NCBI RefSeq assembly: GCF_001652725.1
Contig: NZ_LWHJ01000028.1
Coordinates: 186,001-250,000, forward strand
Direction of reading: 5' to 3'
Length of the DNA: 64,000 bases
Source: Pedobacter psychrophilus
Lineage (GTDB): Bacteria; Bacteroidota; Bacteroidia; Sphingobacteriales; Sphingobacteriaceae
Positions 2,527 to 45,779 of the stretch are shown here, piece by piece (within the stretch, counting starts at the first letter, position 1; every line of letters begins with the position of its first letter). The notes below the pieces were generated by a model. That model did not search any database. It was given only the letters and a program-made list of their open reading frames with translations, and was not told where the DNA came from. Both the position numbers and the translations under genes were made by a program.

Positions 2527-5415
2527 GTGGGTTTATGTGCTAAAACTTCTTCAGCTCAAAATTTCTCAATAACCAAACTTAAACTTTTTTCTCAGCGTGA
2601 AAATATTACGGTAAAAGGAATTACTAAAGATTCTAATGGGTTTATATGGTATTTATCAAATGGAATTATATACCGGTTTGATGGATATAAATCGTTAAAT
2701 GTATCTAAATCTTTAGAACTCAATAATCAGATTTTTAAAGATATTCCCCTTTGTATTACAATTGGTTCTGATGATAAGTTATGGATAGGTGGTGTTTCTA
2801 GCATTGCTTATTTAGACCTTAAAACTTGGAAACTAAATACCTTACCAGAAAATTTATTACCAAAGTCTACTATAAAGGATGTAATATCAATTACAGAATT
2901 AAAACCCGGAAAAGTATTTATTTCATTACTAAGCGGACACATTTTAATATGGAACAAGGGAAAAATTATACTAATTAACGATTTTCACAATAAAGCGCTC
3001 AATTCACAAAACGCTTTAATATCCGCAAAACCTCAATTATGGAATAACAAAGTTTGGTTTGGAAATTCTATTGGTGAATTGTTAAGTATCGACATAAATG
3101 ATTTTAAAACAAAAAGGTATAATAGTTTAAGTATTAAAGGCTCCATCAGATTTATAACAAGTAAAAAAGATGGTTTATTATTAGATGTATTTGAAAAAGG
3201 CATGTTTAATTTTGATGGTATTAAAGCAGAAAAAATAAACAACTCAGGAGCTAAAAATATATCAACCGGAGAAGGACATTCACTATTTGATGGACCATTT
3301 TTTAACGCTTATACCAGAAGGGGCGAAATCTCTATTTTAGATAAAAACAATTTAAATATCATCAACCATTTTAAATTTTCAGCTGAAAATATATTGGATA
3401 TTTTCGATGTATATATCGAAAAAAAGGATATTTACTTAGCGACATCAAACGGGGTTTTTGTAGTTTATCAGAACGAATCTGGAATTTCATCTCTCATTCC
3501 ACGAAACAAAAATTTTAATAAGAGCACTAGAGGTATTTATAAATTTAAAGAAGGAAGTATTTTTTACAGTTCATATGGCGGAGCAGGTTATATTGATAAA
3601 AAAGGTAAAACAGATTTTTTAGACACTTTACACAGCGTTCACACGGTTTATCCCATAAATGATAATGAATTATTAATTGGTACAGAAGGAGGTTTTTTAA
3701 AAATTTACGATAGAAAAAATCACACATTAAAGCAGTTCGAGTTTAATTTACCACAAGAACAGATATACATTTCTAATCTAAGTTTAACCAACTATGTATT
3801 AAGTATTTCGGAGGATGAAACTAATTATTTAATTGGCACAATGAACGGCTTGTGGTCGGTTAATAAAAAAACTTTTAAACTAAAACCGTTTGCCGAAACA
3901 AGCAATTTACAGGTCAGAAATATTAGTATACTAGGCAATAAAATCCTCTTAAGCACTCATCTAGGTTTAATGATATACAAGGATAAAAAGCTTCAAAAAA
4001 TTTATCCTAAAAACAGAACGACAGGAGTTTATAAACAGATCATTAAAAAAGATAGTATTTGGCTGGCTACTGATGGCCAAGGTTTGGTTGCGATTGATTG
4101 GAATGGAAAAATTTTAAAGTCTTATACTAAATCTAATGGTTTAAGTGATGATTTGGTTTACAGTTTAGAGATTGCAGGTAAAGTAAAAATAGCGGGAACA
4201 AGCAACGGACTTAATTTAATTGAAGGAAATTCAATTAAAAAACTGGATGAAAAAGACGGTCTAACCCAAAATGAATTTAATTATGGAGCTTCATTCTATG
4301 ATAAAGAAACTAACCAGGCATATTTTGGAGGTTTAAATGGATATACCGTTTTAAACATGAATAAAGATTGGTTTAAAACAACTAAATTATCAAAAAGTAT
4401 CATATCTGAATTAAGTTTTGTTGATGAGAAGGATGATAAAATCATTTTCGACTACACTTATCCTTACAAAAAAACTAAAGAGCCAATAATTCTAAAACCT
4501 AATCAAAACTTTATCAATATTGGAATAGGTTTTCCAGAAAACTTTAGAAACTCAGAGCAATTTGTATATAAACTTAACAACGAGACGTGGCAATCCCTAT
4601 CAATTGGTCAGCCGGTTTCTCTAGCCGGACTTAAACATGGAGATTATCAAATGTTAGTAAAAGCTGGTGCGGAAGATCAATTAGAGGCAATGCAAAGAAT
4701 AGATATTCAAAAACTTCCTTATTATTATGAAACATGGTGGTTTAAAGTATTTCTGCTGATTATCGGTTGTTCAATAGCCTACTGGTTTTACCTCAATAAA
4801 ATTAATAAGATTAAAAAAGAGCAAATCTTAAGAAGTAATATATCATCAGATTTGCATGATGAAGTTGGAGGGTTATTAACCACTATTTCTATGCAGGCCG
4901 AACTAATTGAAGACAGCGATGAAGTTGCAAAATACGCAAAGAAAATTAGTAGAAATAGTAAAGAAGCAGTACAAGCCATGCGAGATATTGTATGGTCAAT
5001 AGATGCCCGTAACGATAATTGGAAAAGCTTATTAGCAAAAATTAAACATTACGGTAACGAATTGTTTGAAACATCTTCTTCTCGGTTTGAAATTGTAACA
5101 GAGGGAGAAAAACCTAAAAAGATTTCTCAGAAAAAAAGACAAGCTATTTATTTAATTATTAAAGAAACACTAAACAATAGCCGTAAACATGCTCAAGCTT
5201 CTCATGTTTTATTGCACATCAAGTTTTTTCAAAATCAGATAGAAATAGAAATTAAAGACAATGGAAAAGGAATTACTAGTGTAAATGAAAACACAGGACA
5301 AGGGTTAAGAAATATTAAAAACAGGGCATTAGCCATTAAAAGTGAAATTAAAATCGATTCTAATCTTAACGGAACAGCGGTTTTATTAATTTTAAAAAAG
5401 AGAAATACTATTTAG
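2527..5415 (+). CDS. Y_Y_Y/propeller sensor histidine kinase (HisKA_3)
   Basis: This is a large sensor kinase. Residues about 20-650 are a periplasmic two-component propeller with repeated LW.G/IWLAT-type blades (for example DSIWLATDGQG). A Y_Y_Y domain lies at about 660-720, one membrane helix at about 740-757, then a HisKA_3 domain with DLHDEVGG (phospho-His) and a HATPase with TLNNSRKHA (N box) and DNGKGI (G box). Start: the only canonical start codon is GTG at 2527, but the frame is open from 2437 and encodes a convincing signal peptide upstream (a Lys/Tyr-rich segment, then ITVIILLVGL, then SAQ). The true start is probably a non-ATG codon such as CTG at 2473, or the ATG has been lost. 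A NarL-type regulator follows 20 bases later and is the probable partner. Confidence 0.85.
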   Translation: MGLCAKTSSAQNFSITKLKLFSQRENITVKGITKDSNGFIWYLSNGIIYRFDGYKSLNVSKSLELNNQIFKDIPLCITIGSDDKLWIGGVSSIAYLDLKTWKLNTLPENLLPKSTIKDVISITELKPGKVFISLLSGHILIWNKGKIILINDFHNKALNSQNALISAKPQLWNNKVWFGNSIGELLSIDINDFKTKRYNSLSIKGSIRFITSKKDGLLLDVFEKGMFNFDGIKAEKINNSGAKNISTGEGHSLFDGPFFNAYTRRGEISILDKNNLNIINHFKFSAENILDIFDVYIEKKDIYLATSNGVFVVYQNESGISSLIPRNKNFNKSTRGIYKFKEGSIFYSSYGGAGYIDKKGKTDFLDTLHSVHTVYPINDNELLIGTEGGFLKIYDRKNHTLKQFEFNLPQEQIYISNLSLTNYVLSISEDETNYLIGTMNGLWSVNKKTFKLKPFAETSNLQVRNISILGNKILLSTHLGLMIYKDKKLQKIYPKNRTTGVYKQIIKKDSIWLATDGQGLVAIDWNGKILKSYTKSNGLSDDLVYSLEIAGKVKIAGTSNGLNLIEGNSIKKLDEKDGLTQNEFNYGASFYDKETNQAYFGGLNGYTVLNMNKDWFKTTKLSKSIISELSFVDEKDDKIIFDYTYPYKKTKEPIILKPNQNFINIGIGFPENFRNSEQFVYKLNNETWQSLSIGQPVSLAGLKHGDYQMLVKAGAEDQLEAMQRIDIQKLPYYYETWWFKVFLLIIGCSIAYWFYLNKINKIKKEQILRSNISSDLHDEVGGLLTTISMQAELIEDSDEVAKYAKKISRNSKEAVQAMRDIVWSIDARNDNWKSLLAKIKHYGNELFETSSSRFEIVTEGEKPKKISQKKRQAIYLIIKETLNNSRKHAQASHVLLHIKFFQNQIEIEIKDNGKGITSVNENTGQGLRNIKNRALAIKSEIKIDSNLNGTAVLLILKKRNTI

Positions 5416-5435
5416 AAATATATTATTTACGAAAG

Positions 5436-6065
5436 ATGTTGAAACTGGCAATTGTAGAAGATACGGAAGATATAAGAGAAGCCTTAGAGAGTTATTTTTC
5501 TAAACAAAAAGAGATTCAATTATTAATTGCTTCACCAAATGCAGAAGAATTTCTATGTAATATTGCTGTTGGCACTATTGATATTTTATTGTGCGATATA
5601 GGCTTACCGGGAATATCTGGAGTAGAGTTGGTATGGCGGTTAAAACAAATACATCCTAAAATTCACATAGTGATGTTTACCGTTTTTGATGAAGAAGATT
5701 ACATTTTTCAATCTTTAAAAGCAGGGGCTTCAGGTTATTTACTAAAAAACACATCTTTAAAAGAAATTAAAGAAGGATTAATTGATGTTAATAATGGTGG
5801 GGCATCCATGAGCCCACAAATTGCTAAAAAGGTCATCAATTATTTTAATGAAAGAGGCGCTATAAAAAAGGATATTTCAAATATTTTTTCCGATAAAGAA
5901 CTGCTAATTATAAAACAAGCTCAAAAAGGGTATAACAATAGGCAAATAGCTGAAGAAATGTTTGTTTCCATAGATACCATAAAATATCACATCAAAAACA
6001 TATACCGCCAATTAGAAGTTAACAATAGACAAGAATTGAACAAATTTTATAGTCACTTAGGTTAA
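5436..6065 (+). CDS. NarL/LuxR-type response regulator
   Basis: This 209-residue DNA-binding response regulator has a receiver at 1-120 with phospho-acceptor Asp54 in LLCDIGLPG, the acidic pair ED at 9-10 and a Lys in LLKNTSLKE. A LuxR-type helix-turn-helix occupies about 148-205 (FSDKELLIIKQAQKGYNNRQ, then DTIKYHIKNIY). It lies 20 bases after the Y_Y_Y kinase, whose HisKA_3 class normally pairs with NarL regulators, so I infer a cognate system. The nearest downstream gene encodes a surface beta-helix protein preceded by a perfect 7-bp inverted repeat (6152-6169), a plausible target. Confidence 0.93.
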   Translation: MLKLAIVEDTEDIREALESYFSKQKEIQLLIASPNAEEFLCNIAVGTIDILLCDIGLPGISGVELVWRLKQIHPKIHIVMFTVFDEEDYIFQSLKAGASGYLLKNTSLKEIKEGLIDVNNGGASMSPQIAKKVINYFNERGAIKKDISNIFSDKELLIIKQAQKGYNNRQIAEEMFVSIDTIKYHIKNIYRQLEVNNRQELNKFYSHLG

Positions 6066-6151
6066 TCTTAGAAGTCTATAACAGCCATAAATCAAAATTC
6101 TCTAAACTTTTAAAGCACCTTTAAAGCTGTTTAAACGCGATTTTCTAAAAA

Positions 6152-6169
6152 ACTACCCGGGTGGGTAGT
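6152..6169. promoter_or_regulatory. Perfect inverted repeat ACTACCC-N4-GGGTAGT, possible operator
   Basis: A 7-bp perfect palindrome with a GGGT spacer, GC-rich in an AT-rich intergenic region. It lies 62 bases before the ATG of the beta-helix protein and 87 bases after the NarL-type regulator. There is no T-run on either side, which argues against a terminator. A dyad of 7-4-7 suits a dimeric NarL-type regulator. The assignment to the adjacent regulator is inferred from position only. Confidence 0.5.
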
Positions 6170-6230
6170 GGTATGGGAAATCTATTTGGTTTAGCTTTAC
6201 CTAGCAAAATGATTCCCAATCTATCGAAAT

Positions 6231-9200
6231 ATGAAAAAATTAATACTTTTATTTTTACTTGCACTAACAATTACCCACGTAAACGCAACAGTTTATTATG
6301 TAAAAACCACAGGTAGCGATGCCGCAAATGGCATCACCTGGGCAACCGCCTATAAAACTGTACAAAAAGCTTTGGAGGTTGCTATAACAAACGATGAGAT
6401 TTGGGTTGCATCTGGAAACTATGTCCCTACAAAAAATATTGCTGGCGCTACAGTAGCAAATGCTCGCGACAATACGTTCTACCTCACTAAAAACATAAAA
6501 TTATATGGAGGTTTTGCGGGTACAGAAAATAATATAAACCAAAGAATTAAAGATAAAAACATTACCATTCTTAATGGAGATTTTACTGCAAATGGTATTG
6601 ATAACGATAATGCCTATAATGTAATTTATATGGACGCTACCATTACGGGCAATCTTTCCAATAATTGTATTATAGATGGTTTTTCTATTATAAATGGTTT
6701 TCCATCAGGTAAGCCAACCACAGGCTTTAATCTTGAATCAGGCGGTGGAGCCATCTATCTAAAAATAAACGAAGCGATTTGTAGTGCAAAAATAGAAAAT
6801 TGTACTTTCAGAAATAACGTATTTAATAATAGAGGAGCAGCAATAGCTGCAAATACAACAACAGGTAGTAATAATTTGAGTTTAAATAGTTGTTTATTTC
6901 CTGAAAATCAAGATAACTCAATACTATTCAATTTTGATACTTACTCTACAGATCAAAGGGATTTTATATCATCGAATAGCACCATTAATGTAATAAACTG
7001 TTTATTTCAAAAAAACGCTAATCCTATAAATATATTTAACGCTGGCGCACAATATGGCCCATTAAACGTAACCTTCAATTTAACCAATACAACATTTAGA
7101 GGAAATACAATTGATGGTACAGGAGGACCAATCATTATTCAAGGTTTTGGTTCAACCGCCATAATAAACACGAATTTTACCAATTGTCTTTTTGATTCAA
7201 ATAGTTCTACAGATGGACCTGGAGTAGTGTTGTTTAACGCATCAGGAGGCGCCACTGTCAATTCTAAATTTATAAATAACACGTTTTATAAAAACAAGGG
7301 AGTAGCTGCGGCAGGAGTTATAAACAATAGAAATTTGGATAACAGCACAATGAGTACAGCGGTAAGTAATTCCATATTTTATCAAAATAATTTGGATAAC
7401 AATGGGGTATCAATGGGCAGTGAAATAAATGCAACAGAAGGTACAGCAACTATAGGAGTAAGTTACAGCATGACCCAGCAGAACAGTGCATTTTCTACAG
7501 GCACAGGCATTATTAATAATCAAAACCCAAAATTTGTAGATGCTGCAAATGGCGATTTCAGATTGCTTGTAGGTTCGCCAGCAATTAACTCTGGAACAGC
7601 TACCGGAGCACCAAGTACAGATATTACAGGCAAACCAAGACCACAGGGAAGCGGTATAGATATGGGTGCTTATGAAGGTGCGGTAACAAGATATTATGTG
7701 AAATCCACGGGCAGTGATGTTGCAATTGGCACTACTTGGGCAACCGCCTATAAAACAGTACAAAAAGCTTTAGATGTGGCAATAGCTAGTGATGAGATTT
7801 GGGTTGCATCTGGAACTTATGTGCCTACTAAAAATATAGCAGGTACTGCAGTAACCAATGCTGCGGATAATACTTTTTATATTACCAAAAATATAAAGCT
7901 TTACGGAGGTTTTGCAGGTACAGAAACTAATATAAGCCAAAGAATTGCGGGAAGCAACATCACTACGCTAAGCGGGGATATGAACGCTGACGATGACTAC
8001 AGTAACAATGCTTACCACGTGATGGTGATTAGTAGTACCACGAGCAACGGAGCTATACTCAATACTTGTGTGATAGACGGTTTAACTATTACCAAAGGCA
8101 ACGCTTTTGGTGGGGCACTATTTAATTTAGGCGGCGGTTTACTTGTCATAGCTGACGGAAACAACGAAACAAGTCCTCAAATTTCAAACTGTATATTTCA
8201 ATCAAATAGGGCGCAAATTGCAGGTGCCGTTGAAGTTAGAAATTATAGTTCCTTATGCAATTTGGCGTTTAATGCTTGTTCGTTTATAAATAACTCTTCA
8301 AATACTTCTGCAGGTGCAGTTGAGTTTTACTATAGTTCTGGAGCTACAGGAAGTCAAGTTATTAATGAATGTTTATTTAAATCTAACAGTTGCCTCACCT
8401 TTGGAGGAGCCATTAGACTGGAATGTTATAGTACGAGCAATAAATCATTAACAATCACAAATTCAATCTTTGATAAAAATACTTCTACAAACGGTTTTGG
8501 CGGAGCGCTGTCAATAGAAAATTATCAAGCGTCATTAGATTTGAAACTCAAAAACTGTACTTTAAATGAAAATTCTTGCAATGCTTTTGGAGGCGCAATA
8601 TATCTTGATAATAGAGAAGACATCATGACGAGCGCAAAAGGTACATTTAATTCGTCTATAGTAAACTGTATTTTCTGGGGAAGTAAACAACGAGGAAATA
8701 CAGATGAAACAGGATCTGATATAGATAATGGTTCTCGTGTTGATCCTAGTGCAAATCTTTCCGTTACCTATTCCATCACCCAACAAAACAGTACTTACGC
8801 TACAGGTACGGGAATCATCAATAACCAAGACCCAAAATTTGTAAATGCAGCTAATGGCGATTTGAGATTGCTTTCTGGTTCTCCTGCAATTGATGCTGGA
8901 ACAGCTACCGGAGCACCAAGTACAGATATAAATGGCATAAGTCGACCACAAGGTAGTGGAATAGATATGGGCGCTTATGAGGGAATTACTACCCTGCCAG
9001 TAAAACTAATCAGCTTAGAAGCAGCCATCAAAAACCAAAACCAAGTCAGTTTAAATTGGCAAACTGCTTCAGAAACCAAGAACGATTATTTCACCATTTC
9101 TAAAAGCGAGGATGGTAAAACATTTCAGCAATTGAATACCGTAAAATCTAAAGGAGATAATGGAGCAAATTATGAAACCATAGATTTCAATCCTTTTTTA

Positions 9201-31580: not shown

Positions 31581-32207
31581 ATGGCACATAATTCAATCCG
31601 TAAATATATAAATACCATATTGGTTTCATTATCAATATTTTATTCTTGTAGTAATACTAGAGATAATAACGCTAAAGCTATTGAGTTTATTAACAGCCTT
31701 AAAAATAAAATAGAATTGGATAAAATAACTAGTCCGACATGTATAGAAGAGAACAAAAATTCCATAATTCTTTCTACAAAAACAAATGGTCCTGAAAAAT
31801 GTATTACTGAGTTACTTGATAAAAATATTGAGATTATAATTCTCAAATCCTATTTAGATAATTATCTTGAGAATATGGACAATTTATCAAGAAATTTTAG
31901 ATATAAAGACGTACAGATTAATTTAATAATAAAGCAAAATTCCAAAGTAATTTTAGATACTACATTCAGAAGAGAACAATTTGTTAAACAGATTTTAAAA
32001 CAAAGAGATGGAAATTTTATTAGTAAATCTTTTTTGCAGGTTTACAGATTTTCTGAATATCATAATGACAGCAATACAATTATATTTTACGGAGATATTG
32101 GTTATGATGAATACATGTATAGTGAATCAAGTTTTCAATTTAAACACTTTTTTGATTTAAAAAACAGGAAATTAAGCTTTTCATTATACCAAAGCGAAGA
32201 AGATTAA
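31581..32207 (+). CDS. Hypothetical lipoprotein, possibly cut short by in-frame stop
   Basis: A 208-residue probable lipoprotein (signal up to SIFYSC, Cys23), paralogous to the preceding one. After the TAA at 32205-32207 the same frame continues open for 27 codons to a second TAA at 32289-32291, with an acidic then Ser/Lys-rich composition (WEEDEDSSSKVDSI). The present C-terminus is QSEED, which would join smoothly to it. This looks like a premature stop near the end of a once longer protein, although the shorter form may be functional since it covers the region shared with its paralog. Confidence 0.55.
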   Translation: MAHNSIRKYINTILVSLSIFYSCSNTRDNNAKAIEFINSLKNKIELDKITSPTCIEENKNSIILSTKTNGPEKCITELLDKNIEIIILKSYLDNYLENMDNLSRNFRYKDVQINLIIKQNSKVILDTTFRREQFVKQILKQRDGNFISKSFLQVYRFSEYHNDSNTIIFYGDIGYDEYMYSESSFQFKHFFDLKNRKLSFSLYQSEED

Positions 32208-32352
32208 GGTTGGGAAGAAGACGAAGATTCAAGTAGTAAAGTGGACTCAATAAGTAGAACAAATTCTTTAAATAAGAAAGACAGTATTTAATTCTATAAT
32301 GCTTTTAATATTTATAGCTTAATTTTTGAATTATTTTTGAACTTCCCAGTTC

Positions 32353-32554
32353 GTTTAAGTGTTCCAACAGGATCACTTAAATGTTTTTTGAAAACCTAGG
32401 ACTCTGTCCGGGATTATTTAAATGATATTTAAATTTGTATCATATAGCTGGAGAATGAGATTTAAAAACCGTCGATATATTTATTAATTATTCCGGACAC
32501 AGTCCTGAAACCCAAGAAGATTTAAGTGACCGCTGAAAGAGCGAACACTTAAAC
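32353..32554. repeat. 202-bp nested inverted-repeat element
   Basis: Three matched pairs nest around the same centre: GTTTAAGTGTTC (32353-32364) with GAACACTTAAAC (32543-32554); TCACTTAAAT (32373-32382) with ATTTAAGTGA (32520-32529); AGGACTCTGTCCGG (32398-32411) with CCGGACACAGTCCT (32493-32506, one mismatch). Each end also forms its own hairpin, TTTAAGTG/CACTTAAA. No ORF is encoded. This resembles a non-autonomous mobile element; I see no target-site duplication. The rest of the gap 32208-32597 has only the 27-codon extension noted for the preceding gene. Confidence 0.7.
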
Positions 32555-32597
32555 CATAATTTTAAATTTTACCCGACCAAACAGATAGAAACAATTT

Positions 32598-33029
32598 ATG
32601 AAAATTAAAAAACTATTACTATTTACATTAACAGTACTGACACTTTCCAACTGTAAAAAGAATTCTGATAATTCATTAGAAACTTTGACCACAAAAACTT
32701 GGAAAAGAGCTTTGAATGACAAAAACCCGTTAACTAATCCTCCAGGAGCAAACCAAAATTCTTATGGTGCTATCCAAGACTGTGACTTGGATGATACATT
32801 CAAGTTCCAATCAAATGGAAATTTAATCATAAATAGAGGGTCTAATAAATGTAGTCAGAGCGAAATTTATTCGGAAAATCAAACATATACAATCGACAGA
32901 ACGAAAAAAGAAATTTATATTAATGGAGAAAAATATTTCTTAGCTGAAGAATCAAAAGTGCAAATAAAATATTATAGAGCAATACCAGCAACTACAGGAT
33001 TTAATTATATAATTTTACTATTGCAGTGA
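32598..33029 (+). CDS. Small hypothetical lipoprotein (lipocalin-like?)
   Basis: A 143-residue lipoprotein with signal ending LTLSNC (Cys19). The mature part contains TWKRALNDKNP near the start and CDLDDTFKFQSNGNLIINRG in the middle, then TYTIDRTKKEIYINGEK. This layout (an early W-K, then DD.F.F...G......., then a strand-rich end) is what small lipocalin-like/DUF5004-type Bacteroidota lipoproteins look like; the assignment is tentative. It starts 44 bases after the nested repeat element. Confidence 0.5.
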   Translation: MKIKKLLLFTLTVLTLSNCKKNSDNSLETLTTKTWKRALNDKNPLTNPPGANQNSYGAIQDCDLDDTFKFQSNGNLIINRGSNKCSQSEIYSENQTYTIDRTKKEIYINGEKYFLAEESKVQIKYYRAIPATTGFNYIILLLQ

Positions 33030-33061
33030 AAAACGTTACCCACCTAAACGAAACAATCCTT

Positions 33062-34852
33062 TTAACCAACCACCGGCAGCCCCATTTTATCTAATTTCCT
33101 TTCCAACAAACTCAACTCTTCTAAAAACTCACTTTTTAAAGTAGCAGCTTTCTCAAAAACCATATCAGCTATGGTTTTATAATATTGAATTCCATTGTTT
33201 AATTGCTGATGAAAATTTTTGATTGACTTTTCTTTTTTAGCGGTTAATTCTAAAATATTGGAGTTGATGTCGTTTTTTAAATAATCGATATAAAGCTTCA
33301 ATTCATTGATGAAAATATGAGGGCGTTCAGTTTTTATTAGATCTAATTTCCCATAAATATGTCCAACCATTTGTTCAAGAGTATAAATACCATTAAAAAA
33401 AGCCAGGTTAGGTCCTGGGCAAATGGCCACAGCTTTGCTCTCTTTTGATTTAAAAATATCGTATTTCAAATAGGCAGAACTTACCAAGCCTTCGCAAAGG
33501 CAAATTTTAGAAGTAACTTCATCATATTTCTGTTGATACAAGTTTTCTTCCAATTGTTGGTTTTGCAAATCCTTAATTTTTAAACCTTGATATTTTTTAG
33601 AAGCTGTACAAATAGGTTGTGCAGTAAACTCAGTGTTTGATACCAAATATTTTTTAGTACAAGGACTGCCGGGTTTGCCATCGGCAATTCTTTGTAAACG
33701 TTGCTTTTCTGAACCGCTTTTTCTAAAATTATTAAATGGTATGCCTAATGGCGATGAAGCGCTTACATAAAAATCTTTGGCGGTAGCAGTAGACAAATCT
33801 TTTAAAGTTTCTTCGTCAACGGCCGTAACTTCGGGAACCAACAAAAATGGACTTCCCCAACCCGTTGCGTCTAAATGATAAAAGGATCGTAAGAAATTAT
33901 CTTCCTCAAAAGTTCCAATTCCTCCCTGTAAAGTTATTTTTTGCTTCGGCGCAAGCCTAATGAATATGTTTTTTTCTGACAAAGCTTTTTTATACATCGC
34001 AAAAAGCTCGATAATCATTTCTTGTCTCTTTTGCTTAAACTCTTCTAAAATTGGCCCTAATAAATATCCTTCTGTTGCAAAAGCATGTCCGCCGCAATTT
34101 AAACCAGACTCTATCCTAAACTCTGAAACCCAAATTCCTTTTTTCGCCAAAAATTTAGCCTGTATCAACGCGGATCTATAATCGCTAACTTTTAAAATCA
34201 GTTTTTTCTTAAAAACAAGGTTTTCATCAGGAAGGAAATCTTTAAATCTTTCTAAATAACTGTATAATCGAGGATTCATTCCGGCAGATAAAATCAAAGA
34301 AGAGGTTAAATTACTGTTCGCAAAACCACGTAGTGCCGCCAATGCATCGCTAAAAATTTCTTCTTTTAAATCGCCATTGGCATCCACATTCATCTTATCC
34401 ACTTTAGACATGATGTTTACATCAATGTTTCCCTTAACCATTTGCTTTTTAAGCTCATCAATAAAAATAGATTTGATAGCTATATTTTTTTCGGCAAGCA
34501 TCAACAAATATTTGCGTTTTAAAGGGCTGGTTTTGGGCAATAAATCAAAATACCTAGTGAGTTCGATTCCGTTTTCAAAAGATTGTTTTTTGAAAGACTC
34601 AAATTTTTCATCTACTAAATCTTTCAATAAATTTAGATAAGCCGTTATTCTTTTAGCCCTATAATCATCTTCTTTATTAGAAATTTCTTCATAAAAACGG
34701 TTGTTTTTCTCGCTATGATGCTTTCTAACTCGTTCTATAGCAATATCATCTACAACAGAAATTACAGAAGAAATGCCGTAGGGCGCAACATTTAAAGGGG
34801 TGTCTATAGAATATCCTAATCCTAAAACAGGAATGTGAAATGTGTGACTCAT
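33062..34852 (-). CDS. Cys-rich protein of unknown function, possibly FMN/Fe-S barrel
   Basis: A 596-residue cytoplasmic protein without a signal or membrane helix. Residues about 215-370 have the feel of a flavin TIM barrel: ESGLNCGGHAFATEG (Cys253), LQGGIGTFEEDNFL, then DATGWGSPFLLVPEVTAVD and VSASSPLGIPF. Cys398, 415, 451, 453 and 478 lie in the next 80 residues (GSPCTKK, QPICTAS, KICLCEGLV, AICPGPNL) and could hold a Fe-S cluster. The C-terminal 100 residues are coiled-coil-like. I do not recognise a named family. It is divergent from a FixL-like kinase, with an FNR-type palindrome between, suggesting it is induced at low oxygen. Confidence 0.6.
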   Translation of the reverse strand: MSHTFHIPVLGLGYSIDTPLNVAPYGISSVISVVDDIAIERVRKHHSEKNNRFYEEISNKEDDYRAKRITAYLNLLKDLVDEKFESFKKQSFENGIELTRYFDLLPKTSPLKRKYLLMLAEKNIAIKSIFIDELKKQMVKGNIDVNIMSKVDKMNVDANGDLKEEIFSDALAALRGFANSNLTSSLILSAGMNPRLYSYLERFKDFLPDENLVFKKKLILKVSDYRSALIQAKFLAKKGIWVSEFRIESGLNCGGHAFATEGYLLGPILEEFKQKRQEMIIELFAMYKKALSEKNIFIRLAPKQKITLQGGIGTFEEDNFLRSFYHLDATGWGSPFLLVPEVTAVDEETLKDLSTATAKDFYVSASSPLGIPFNNFRKSGSEKQRLQRIADGKPGSPCTKKYLVSNTEFTAQPICTASKKYQGLKIKDLQNQQLEENLYQQKYDEVTSKICLCEGLVSSAYLKYDIFKSKESKAVAICPGPNLAFFNGIYTLEQMVGHIYGKLDLIKTERPHIFINELKLYIDYLKNDINSNILELTAKKEKSIKNFHQQLNNGIQYYKTIADMVFEKAATLKSEFLEELSLLERKLDKMGLPVVG

Positions 34853-42776: not shown

Positions 42777-42853
42777 GCGTTAACGATTGAAGCGGCATCC
42801 TTTTTTTCTTTTTTAAGAAAAAAAGATATAGCGGAAAGCGTGTTAAAACGCCC
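42777..42853. repeat. Dispersed intergenic element B
   Basis: A 77-bp copy: GCGTTAACGATTGAAGCGGC at the left, an inner TTTTTTTCTT/AAGAAAAAAA hairpin, and GATATAGCGGAAAGCG...AAAACGCCC at the right. It belongs to the same family as A, C and D. It lies between the ffh -7 element and the ATG. The rest of the 481-bp gap holds the candidate RNA and promoters. Confidence 0.7.
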
Positions 42854-44379: not shown

Positions 44380-44705
44380 TCTCGATTAAATAAATCAAAA
44401 TCAGATTAGTGAAATAATTTATTTAATGAATTTAAATTGGTGAAAATCCGTGTATTTGTGGCAAAATTATCTGAATCTCGATTTTAGGATTTTAGGATTT
44501 TCTTGATTAAACCATCAAATCCATATTATCGAAATCATTTGTTGTATACATTCTGATTAGTGAAAATTAGTGTATTAGTGGCAAAAAAATCTCCCGCAGA
44601 CTTCGCTGATTTTCGCAGAGCGATGTGCAAATTAAATCACGCAAATAATTCTTTTTGTCCTTAAATCCTGTAATCAAGATTCAGACAAAAGATTTAGACA
44701 AATTT
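44380..44705. repeat. Repeat-rich intergenic region (CTGAATCTCGATT and CTCCCGCAGA types)
   Basis: The 475-bp gap before the exonuclease gene has no ORF. It contains CTGAATCTCGATTTTAGGA (44471), repeated TTAGTGAAAAT/TTAGTG phrases, CTCCCGCAGACTTCGCTGAT (44591-), and ATCAAGATTCAGA (44673-). These match the repeats at 29195-29389 and 17412-17520. Confidence 0.6.
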
Positions 44706-44753
44706 TGGTTTGATATTTGAAAACATAATTCCACATCAAATGTCTATAAGTCA

Positions 44754-45779
44754 ATGTCCAAAAAACCCCTTTTAGAGTTTAACCAAAATGGAATTTACTG
44801 TGCTGCGGGAGATTTTTATATAGATCCTTGGCGACCTGTAAACGATGCGGTTATTTCTCATGGACATAGCGATCATGCAAAATGGGGACATAAAAAATAT
44901 TTAGCACACACACTTTCTCGTGAGATTCTTTACTACCGTTTAGGGGAAATCAATTTAGAAACGATGGACTACGGCGAGAGTAGGGTTAAAAATGGTGTGA
45001 AAATCACTTTTTATCCAGCGGGTCACATTCCTGGTTCAGCCCAAATTAGAGTTGAATATAAAGGAGAAATTTGGGTTTTTTCTGGTGATTACAAAACTGA
45101 AGACGATGGACTTTGTGCGCCTTTTGAGCCAGTAAAATGCCATTCTTTTATTTCTGAATGTACTTTTGGAATGCCTGTTTATAAATGGGCACCACAAAAA
45201 GAAATTTTTGATGGCATAAATAGTTGGTGGAGCCAAAACCAAGAAGAAGGAAAAACTTCTGTTTTAGCCGGTTATTCTTTAGGAAAAGCGCAACGTATTC
45301 TGCAAAATTTAGACATGAATTTAGGTAAAGTTTATACACATGGCGTAATCCAAAACTCTAATGAAGCATTGATTAGAAATGGGATTAATTTGTATGAAAC
45401 CACCAGAATCACTCCCGAAACCACAAAAGAAGAGTTAAAAGGGAATATGGTCATTTGCCCACCTTCTGCGGTTGGCACACCGTGGATGCGTAAAATGTTG
45501 CCTTATTCTTTTGGATATTGCTCGGGTTGGATGGCTATTCGTGGAGCAAAAAAACGTAGAGCCGCAGACCGAGGTTTTGTGCTATCAGATCATGCCGATT
45601 GGGATGGATTAATTTCTTCCATAAAAGCTACCGAATGTGATACCGTTTATTTAACCCATGGCTCAACAGCAAGTTTTAGCAGGTATTTACAAGGAATTGG
45701 TTATGATGCAAGGGAATCAAAAACCCTTTATGGTAATGAGGAAGAAGCGGATTTAGAAAAAGAAGGTTCTAATTTATGA
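44754..45779 (+). CDS. Ligase-associated DNA exonuclease (metallo-beta-lactamase fold)
   Basis: A 341-residue MBL/beta-CASP-like nuclease. Zn ligands appear in ISHGHSDHAKWG (HxHxDH), AGHIPGSAQ and SGDYKTEDD; FVLSDHADWDGL near the end gives the last His. This is the exonuclease of the ligase-associated DNA damage response set found in many bacteria with an ATP-dependent ligase and Lhr-type helicase. The ligase gene follows 70 bases later on the same strand, which supports the assignment. Confidence 0.9.
   Translation: MSKKPLLEFNQNGIYCAAGDFYIDPWRPVNDAVISHGHSDHAKWGHKKYLAHTLSREILYYRLGEINLETMDYGESRVKNGVKITFYPAGHIPGSAQIRVEYKGEIWVFSGDYKTEDDGLCAPFEPVKCHSFISECTFGMPVYKWAPQKEIFDGINSWWSQNQEEGKTSVLAGYSLGKAQRILQNLDMNLGKVYTHGVIQNSNEALIRNGINLYETTRITPETTKEELKGNMVICPPSAVGTPWMRKMLPYSFGYCSGWMAIRGAKKRRAADRGFVLSDHADWDGLISSIKATECDTVYLTHGSTASFSRYLQGIGYDARESKTLYGNEEEADLEKEGSNL

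Follow-up and report, generated by a model that had tools for sequence, protein, structure and literature searches.

A REPIN-like element between two lipoprotein-like genes of Pedobacter psychrophilus shares its ends with a RAYT gene elsewhere in the genome

Introduction

Between two same-strand genes of Pedobacter psychrophilus (Bacteroidota; Sphingobacteriaceae) lies a stretch of about 200 bases that contains no long reading frame and folds back on itself at several levels. What kind of structure is it, and why does it stand there? An earlier note, made from the sequence alone, described a nested palindrome between small lipoprotein genes and offered two possibilities: a miniature mobile element, or a strong cruciform that takes part in recombination around the lipoproteins. 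Here, we address the question by examining the fold of the palindrome, its copies in this genome and in relatives, and the transposase gene that carries the same ends. The window refers to the whole 64,000-nucleotide stretch analysed (assembly GCF_001652725.1, contig NZ_LWHJ01000028.1, positions 186,001 to 250,000, forward strand). Positions are those of the window unless a locus (L) or contig (C) is named, and related genomes are numbered G.

Results

The nested palindrome at 32353-32554 is real, since its arms were recovered both by reading the sequence and with a repeat finder (Table 1). As single-stranded DNA, 32345-32565 folds at -35.1 kcal/mol, compared with -15.3 kcal/mol (sd 3.0) in 200 dinucleotide shuffles (z -6.6). 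The 12-nt outer arms by themselves are unremarkable, because the AT-rich window holds eight perfect 12-nt arm pairs at distances of 60-400 bp, at five separate places. It is the arms together with the end hairpins and the recurrence elsewhere that are beyond chance. At 44585-44817 the window also has perfect 15-nt inverted arms about 200 bp apart, pieced together from overlapping 12-mers.

The earlier note saw no ORF here, and none of at least 50 aa lies within the palindrome; a minus-strand ORF (32549-32722) reaches into the last bases of the palindrome only. ORFs 31581-32207 and 32598-33029 flank it, and their N-termini were judged lipobox-like by eye. The element reaches slightly past the ends first given for it, to about 32344-32564. 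These limits are supported by near-identical copies in two related genomes (G005 and G007), whose ends lie 8-10 nt outside the hairpin feet.

A profile model of the repeat unit, R1, resolves the element into two REP units. Each unit has a main hairpin (HP1) and a small second hairpin (HP2). In unit 1, HP1 has a lower stem of 10 bp, a T.T mismatch and an upper stem of T-A and CC/GG; in unit 2, the lower stem and T.T mismatch are followed by an upper stem of CGCT/AGCG. Two non-coding, inverted REP units with a short spacer are the arrangement of a REPIN.

Table 1. Features of the palindromic element in the window
Feature	Position	Strand	Details and basis
Outer arm pair	32353-32364/32543-32554		12 nt, 100%; repeat finder
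Middle arm pair	32373-32388/32514-32529		16 nt, 88%; repeat finder
Inner arm pair	32398-32418/32486-32506		21 nt, 86%; repeat finder
Left end hairpin	32354-32365/32370-32381		92%; repeat finder
Right end hairpin	32521-32534/32540-32553		86%; repeat finder
Whole REPIN-like element (two inverted REP units and spacer)	32344..32564	.	R1 model matches
REP unit 1, short-loop	32344..32415	+	R1 model 79.6 bits, E 3.8e-14
Main hairpin HP1 of unit 1	32352..32383	+	Repeat finder, fold, alignment, R1
Small hairpin HP2 of unit 1 (GGAC-TCT-GTCC)	32399..32409	+	Unit alignment, R1
Spacer	32416..32488	.	Between the two REP units
REP unit 2, long-loop	32489..32563	-	R1 model 56.7 bits, E 1.9e-9
Main hairpin HP1 of unit 2	32519..32555	-	Repeat finder, fold, alignment, R1
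Small hairpin HP2 of unit 2 (GGAC-TGT-GTCC)	32495..32505	-	Unit alignment, R1
Hairpin-foot tag of unit 1	32350..32353	+	TTCG, vs CTSG in most units
Hairpin-foot tag of unit 2	32554..32557	-	ATGG, vs CTSG in most units

A DNA search of the genome with the element gave 12 matches: the element itself, eight on C11:680641-681833, two on C27 and one on C30. The C30 match (84%, 41 bases) falls within an ORF that by eye resembles a sugar-nucleotide epimerase, and is probably due to chance. At E <= 0.01, R1 found eight units in this genome, two in the window, four at the C11 locus and two on C27. The C11 matches surround a 184-aa ORF (L009:9147-9701), which is flanked by the two ends of the window element in the same order and in inverted orientation.

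This ORF passes the NCBIfam model REP_Tyr_transpos NF047646 (91.1 bits, cut-off 80) and matches Pfam Y1_Tnp (27.8 bits, cut-off 23), but falls below the IS200 equivalog cut-off (25.9 vs 55 bits). Its fold from the single sequence was poor (pLDDT 45.7) and was hence rebuilt with an alignment of 38 proteins, its own and 37 of 80 relatives, which gave an AlphaFold model with pLDDT 93.3. The solved structure closest to the model is 4er8, a RAYT bound to a REP hairpin (Z 15.2, rmsd 2.9, 144 aligned residues, 17% identity); 4er8 was also ranked first by Foldseek, and the runner-up structure reached Z 11.1. A search of solved structures with the RAYT sequence found nothing at E 0.001. By its family profiles and the Y1 fold of its predicted structure, the 184-aa ORF is a RAYT (REP-associated tyrosine transposase) of the Y1 HUH type, and the window-type REP therefore flanks a RAYT gene on another contig of the same genome. 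The miniature mobile element of the earlier note is supported: similar ends recur in the genome and its relatives, so the palindrome is not single-copy, and a transposase gene with the same ends exists on C11.

Unit 1 matches the type at L009:9704-9775, downstream of the RAYT gene, and so corresponds to its 3' side; unit 2 matches the type at L009:9036-9111, upstream of the gene, and so corresponds to its 5' side. The window element is minus-oriented relative to the RAYT unit, with the long-loop unit at its right end on the plus strand. With the window element read on the minus strand, the two share one layout: a long-loop REP, the gene (absent in the window) and an inverted short-loop REP. 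In its sequence the window element thus resembles the host genome's RAYT unit with the gene taken out. Among the RAYT genes read that have one unit on each side, the upstream loop is often longer and the downstream loop shorter. This polarity is clear at L009, L021, L022, L023, L028 and L031; other loci, such as L025, L026 and L027, run against it, as their upstream loops are short too.

Further repeats were seen around these copies. A partial REP end that lacks the main hairpin (L009:9804-9844, minus strand) adjoins the RAYT unit, and extra upstream-type REPs stand in a row at this locus, as in a decaying cluster. On C27:39945-43876, two solo REP units with their tags inward, L010:4946-5017 (-) and 8807-8877 (+), bracket a Hachiman defence pair (HamA 5110-6063, HamB 6066-8735); the distances to the hairpins are roughly 100 and 80 nt. 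A second dispersed repeat family is represented in the window by a 30-base sequence (42777-42806), which has five exact copies in the genome and is followed by a T-run/A-run hairpin; one copy adjoins the RAYT cluster and one the left solo REP.

The neighbours of the other copies bear on two readings that tie the palindrome to its own site. The proposed cruciform role in recombination around the lipoproteins is not supported: the other copies whose neighbours were read adjoin other genes, namely at the RAYT locus, the Hachiman locus, an IS1182-like gene and the gapA region. A homologue of the downstream lipoprotein occurs in 5 of 18 genus genomes, P. psychrophilus included, and the other four have none on a unit-bearing contig. 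The strong fold and the position between two same-strand genes would suit a host regulatory structure, such as a terminator, an mRNA-stabilising hairpin or a structured RNA, and for REPs elsewhere, effects on mRNA stability and termination have been reported (PMC6006769). However, no terminator-like site was found in 32000-33100, an Rfam search of 31900-33100 gave nothing up to E 1, and the same units recur by the RAYT gene and other unrelated genes. We consider a host regulatory structure very unlikely; a secondary effect of the element on transcription is possible.

To describe the REP unit in general, a pattern search was used, which yielded 70 candidate units. Sixty were kept and 10 were dropped as chance or distant matches (one each at L011, L149, L151, L152 and L157, two at L010 near 11 kb, and three at L078). 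Alignment A1 holds 58 of the 60, one L088 unit and one L124 unit being left out. Because the pattern itself demanded arms resembling TTTAAG with at least 7 of 8 arm pairs, a mismatch that reads TT, and a stem further in, conservation at these positions cannot be taken as independent evidence. Such evidence does come from the -2/+2 pair, from the foot tag and from the mismatch on its 3' side.

The 60 units, drawn from this genome and its relatives, share one plan. A C-rich stretch is followed by a tag, mostly CT[G/C]G, and then by TTTAAGTG or a variant of it; next come the mismatch, CC..GG or CGCT..AGCG, and CACTTAAA. About 17-20 nt on, the small second hairpin begins, mostly GGAC..GTCC, AGAC..GTCT or GGTC..GACC. 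A perfect second-hairpin stem of at least 4 is present in 47 of the units, 35 of them being of these three main types. The foot tags are CTGG (33 units), CTCG (15), CTAG (5) and others (7), and the foot CT is kept in 55 of 60. The tag at the hairpin 5' foot is CTSG rather than the GT[AG]G of a canonical REP; the window copy has neither, and its ATGG is shared with one other unit. The first T of the mismatch opposes T or C and is thus unpaired in 57 of 60 units (hand count from an internal-loop table).

The stem pairing is kept by compensatory change. Watson-Crick pairing at -2/+2 holds in 51 of 60 units (G-C 32, C-G 17, A-T 2), compared with a shuffle mean of 27.5, and none of 20000 shuffles reached 51. 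In A1, 91.9% of cells pair, as against 82.3% when shuffled and 21.4-48.3% when slid, and two-sided changes occur in 73 cells vs 21.0 shuffled. Of the five whole-structure measures, two are weak, namely further pair types (20 vs 18.6; 121 of 500 shuffles) and the pairs changed on both sides (8 vs 6.0; 7 of 500 shuffles). In the small hairpin, 86.0% of A1 cells are paired, with two-sided changes at three of the four pairs. The stem variants GTG, GAG, GTC and GTT at RAYT loci still pair.

R1 units (E <= 0.01) were found in 15 of the 60 genomes searched, that of P. psychrophilus included, with the most, 25, in Pedobacter cryophilus (G008); R1 was built partly from units of these same genomes, which makes its counts there partly circular. 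Seven genomes carry a RAYT that shares 60% identity or more with the P. cryophilus protein, and each of the seven has units (5-25); of the remaining 53 genomes, eight do (1-18). The chance of seven out of seven is about 2e-5 (hypergeometric, by hand, kinship ignored). The pairing of units with this RAYT clade is not strict, since G007 (18 units) and G015 (14 units) have no RAYT above about 51% identity. Of 81 RAYT genes, own included, 73 were testable, and 23 of these have hairpins on both sides with a common 6-nt foot, compared with 2/70, 0/73, 0/67 and 0/67 when the same test was made at shifted positions. TTTAAG is present in the stem shown for 14 of these 23 genes.

Near-identical copies with different flanks were seen among the relatives. 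G007 has two copies 98.8% identical over 161 bp with different flanks, and a third that agrees at 99-100% over about 100 bp, up to the contig end. A G005 copy and a G007 copy are 94.1% identical over 202 bp. Among the G005 and G007 copies, identity ends at the element edges, 8-10 nt beyond the hairpins. A pair of G015 copies overshoots the element edge: its 97.1% identity extends over 238 bp and reaches about 75 nt past one hairpin. Judged from these alignments, the copies fit movement as a unit, and movement itself is what we infer from them.

No clean empty site was found for any copy searched (window region, G007:C73 and G005:C107); the search with the window region gave only short flank matches. 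The G007:C73 copy lies inside an IS1182-like gene (named by eye) that is missing about 1.15 kb, as judged against five places (G007:C21, G015:C74, G008:C1, G014 and G013). When 12 pairs were checked for frames running in and out, this copy alone had a long open frame at each side. In a region common to G005 and G007, running from a sensor kinase to gapA (both named by eye), near-identical REPINs occupy different places. This was considered as a clean empty site and rejected: other DNA differs there too, leaving a position difference only.

Two other arrangements were noted in G007. At the end of C73 (L131:5446-5524), a partial copy of an element end truncates a HigB-like toxin ORF (named by eye), of which the contig also carries an uninterrupted paralogue. 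On C59 (L194), a REPIN adjoins a DNA methyltransferase and a HaeIII-type endonuclease-like ORF (named by eye); in the G005 stretch read, the REPIN is present and the cassette is absent.

These pairs also bear on whether the window element is one element at all. Two independent solo REPs might face each other by chance, given that solo REPs occur in this genome (L010) and that the window spacer does not significantly resemble either of two other spacers (shuffle p 0.18 and 0.44 in local alignment). With a 231-base query, BLAST nonetheless carries a single 69% match through positions 12-219 in G005 and G007; despite this match, common ancestry of the window spacer and the G005/G007 spacers is unsupported by the shuffle-tested alignment. 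Against a chance encounter, pairs in F-then-R order, made of a long-loop and a short-loop unit, are found again in other genomes at similar size, and whole pairs have been duplicated as units. We therefore regard two unrelated solo REPs as a most improbable explanation.

A classical MITE, whose terminal inverted repeat is recognised as duplex by a DDE transposase, would account for the perfect 12-nt outer arms and for the size of related pairs, which are MITE-sized (135-192 bp from hairpin to hairpin in six others, 161-202 bp with tags). However, the gene found with these ends encodes a Y1 transposase, the main hairpin shows covariation that extends to a pair outside the arms by which units were found, and target-site duplication is absent at the four G005 and G007 copies read by eye. 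A classical MITE is extremely unlikely. Y1 HUH-type RAYTs are known to act on single-stranded DNA hairpins. As the transposase here is of this kind, the hairpins, rather than the ends of a classical TIR/DDE system, are by analogy the likely recognition sites.

The state of the transposase and of the foot tags was also compared. The second HUH residue is His in all 80 relatives and Asn in the RAYT of P. psychrophilus (HVN for HVH); the P. cryophilus protein (L022) keeps HVH. The first is His in 80 of 81 RAYTs (Arg in one relative), the catalytic tyrosine is present in 80 and uncovered in one, and seven relatives have stops within the aligned gene. The window copy is probably a relic, judging from its sequence, because the sole RAYT found with these ends in its genome has HVN and both foot tags have lost CT. 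With eight units, Asn in the cognate RAYT and CT lost at both feet, the REP family in this genome looks dying. The eight units here and up to 25 in G008 lie below the REP norm of more than 100 per genome (PMC2817692).

Other RAYT genes are present in this genome, where a family search gave nine matches, four above the cut-off. Both histidines are kept in the six distinct other genes that aligned (the best alignment of L019 was the L016 gene, and L020 gave none). Near the RAYTs of L012, L013, L014 and L018 are hairpins with different stems, for example GTTCGACATG with the same TT, CC..GG core, and an R1 search of the other RAYT loci found nothing above 21 bits. With differing stems and R1 scores this low at their loci, these RAYTs probably do not serve window-type REPs.

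Discussion

Our results suggest that the palindrome in the window is very probably a REPIN-like, non-autonomous derivative of a RAYT unit, mobilised in trans as folded single-stranded DNA. The evidence for this reading is its anatomy, the ends shared with a RAYT gene, recurrence, covariation of the stems, and near-identical copies in different immediate flanks; that this RAYT binds and cuts the ends, where it cuts, and that it moves the element are what we infer from it. When the strand becomes single-stranded, for example as lagging-strand template, each end would fold into a mismatched HP1 and a small HP2. RAYT supplied in trans would bind the hairpins, and its tyrosine would cut near the hairpin foot and join the ends. 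The unit could then be copied or moved to another single-stranded site, mostly intergenic. In E. coli REPs, the mismatch is reported to be required for cleavage, which occurs at a CT (PMC8266576). By analogy, the foot CT conserved in the units described here is a candidate cut site.

RAYT genes flanked by inverted REPs are established (PMC2817692), and the REPIN as described by Bertels and Rainey in 2011 (PMC3116915) resembles the window element in having a spacer between two inverted REPs, in its compensatory changes, in its extragenic position and in its link to a RAYT. In contrast to the REPINs described there, the elements here have no GTAG/GTGG-type tag, few copies and an extra small hairpin at each end. 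At 161-202 bp with tags, they are also longer than the REPIN spacings of 71 and 110 bp given in that paper.

The closest described group appears to be subclass 2.6 of TnpA-REP (Bertels group 5), which is mostly from Bacteroidetes and for which atypical flanking structures that lack GT[AG]G were reported (Quentin 2018, PMC6006769). Those structures were found by hand and have copies elsewhere in the genome, according to the same paper; both the absence of GT[AG]G and the genomic copies apply here. Our RAYT likewise is from Bacteroidota, has about 180 aa, carries WQ and YIHQNP motifs and has a long HuH-Y distance (residues 60/62 to Y145; median 82 in PMC6006769). Unlike the NH[LIV]H given for subclass 2.6, it reads NHVN. 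Assignment to the atypical REPs of subclass 2.6/group 5 is suggested by this motif comparison, as distinct from a tree with reference sequences. REPINs, REP-flanked RAYTs and atypical Bacteroidota REPs are known; the anatomy given here is not spelled out in the text of PMC6006769, and the sequence table of that paper may already list sequences related to these REPs.

Other systems share parts of this anatomy. The E. coli REP and its TnpA-REP (PMC8266576) are alike in the imperfect palindrome, conserved mismatch, tag at the 5' foot and HUH transposase fold (4er8), and differ from the units here in the tag (GTAG, not CTSG), in the stem, which here is TTTAAGTG, and in the second hairpin found here. 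The CGTC-tagged repeats, found also in Bacteroidetes (PMC3733652), are similarly short palindromes, often in inverted dimers; the units here have a CTSG tag and an associated RAYT, whereas the table of that paper gives no transposase association. IS200/IS605 ends are alike in having subterminal hairpins and recognition as single-stranded DNA by a Y1 transposase; unlike in those elements, the protein here passes the RAYT model and falls below the IS200 cut-off, and the two ends are inverted versions of one unit. Chryseobacterium RAYT is treated in PMC11194056, the available text of which does not cover the REPs. Among titles and abstract openings in the open-licence literature, we found no description of these repeats in Pedobacter or Sphingobacteriaceae, and our literature searches found no biochemistry for this RAYT group.

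A bolder reading, which we put forward only tentatively and consider rather doubtful, is that this RAYT branch recognises a bipartite end unlike that of characterised REPs, that pairs without a RAYT gene are mobile, and that solo copies may bracket passengers such as Hachiman. In that reading, the end would comprise a TTTAAG-footed hairpin, a fixed T.T/T.C mismatch, a CTSG tag and a second covarying hairpin about 17-20 nt on.

The REPs and RAYTs of Bacteroidota have been called atypical in print, with no detailed description in the text of PMC6006769. Two hairpins at each end, a CTSG tag, a fixed mismatch and a long/short polarity make a concrete, testable RAYT substrate. In P. psychrophilus, the ends are kept while the RAYT carries a substitution in its HUH motif, and this genome may offer a snapshot of how such families die.
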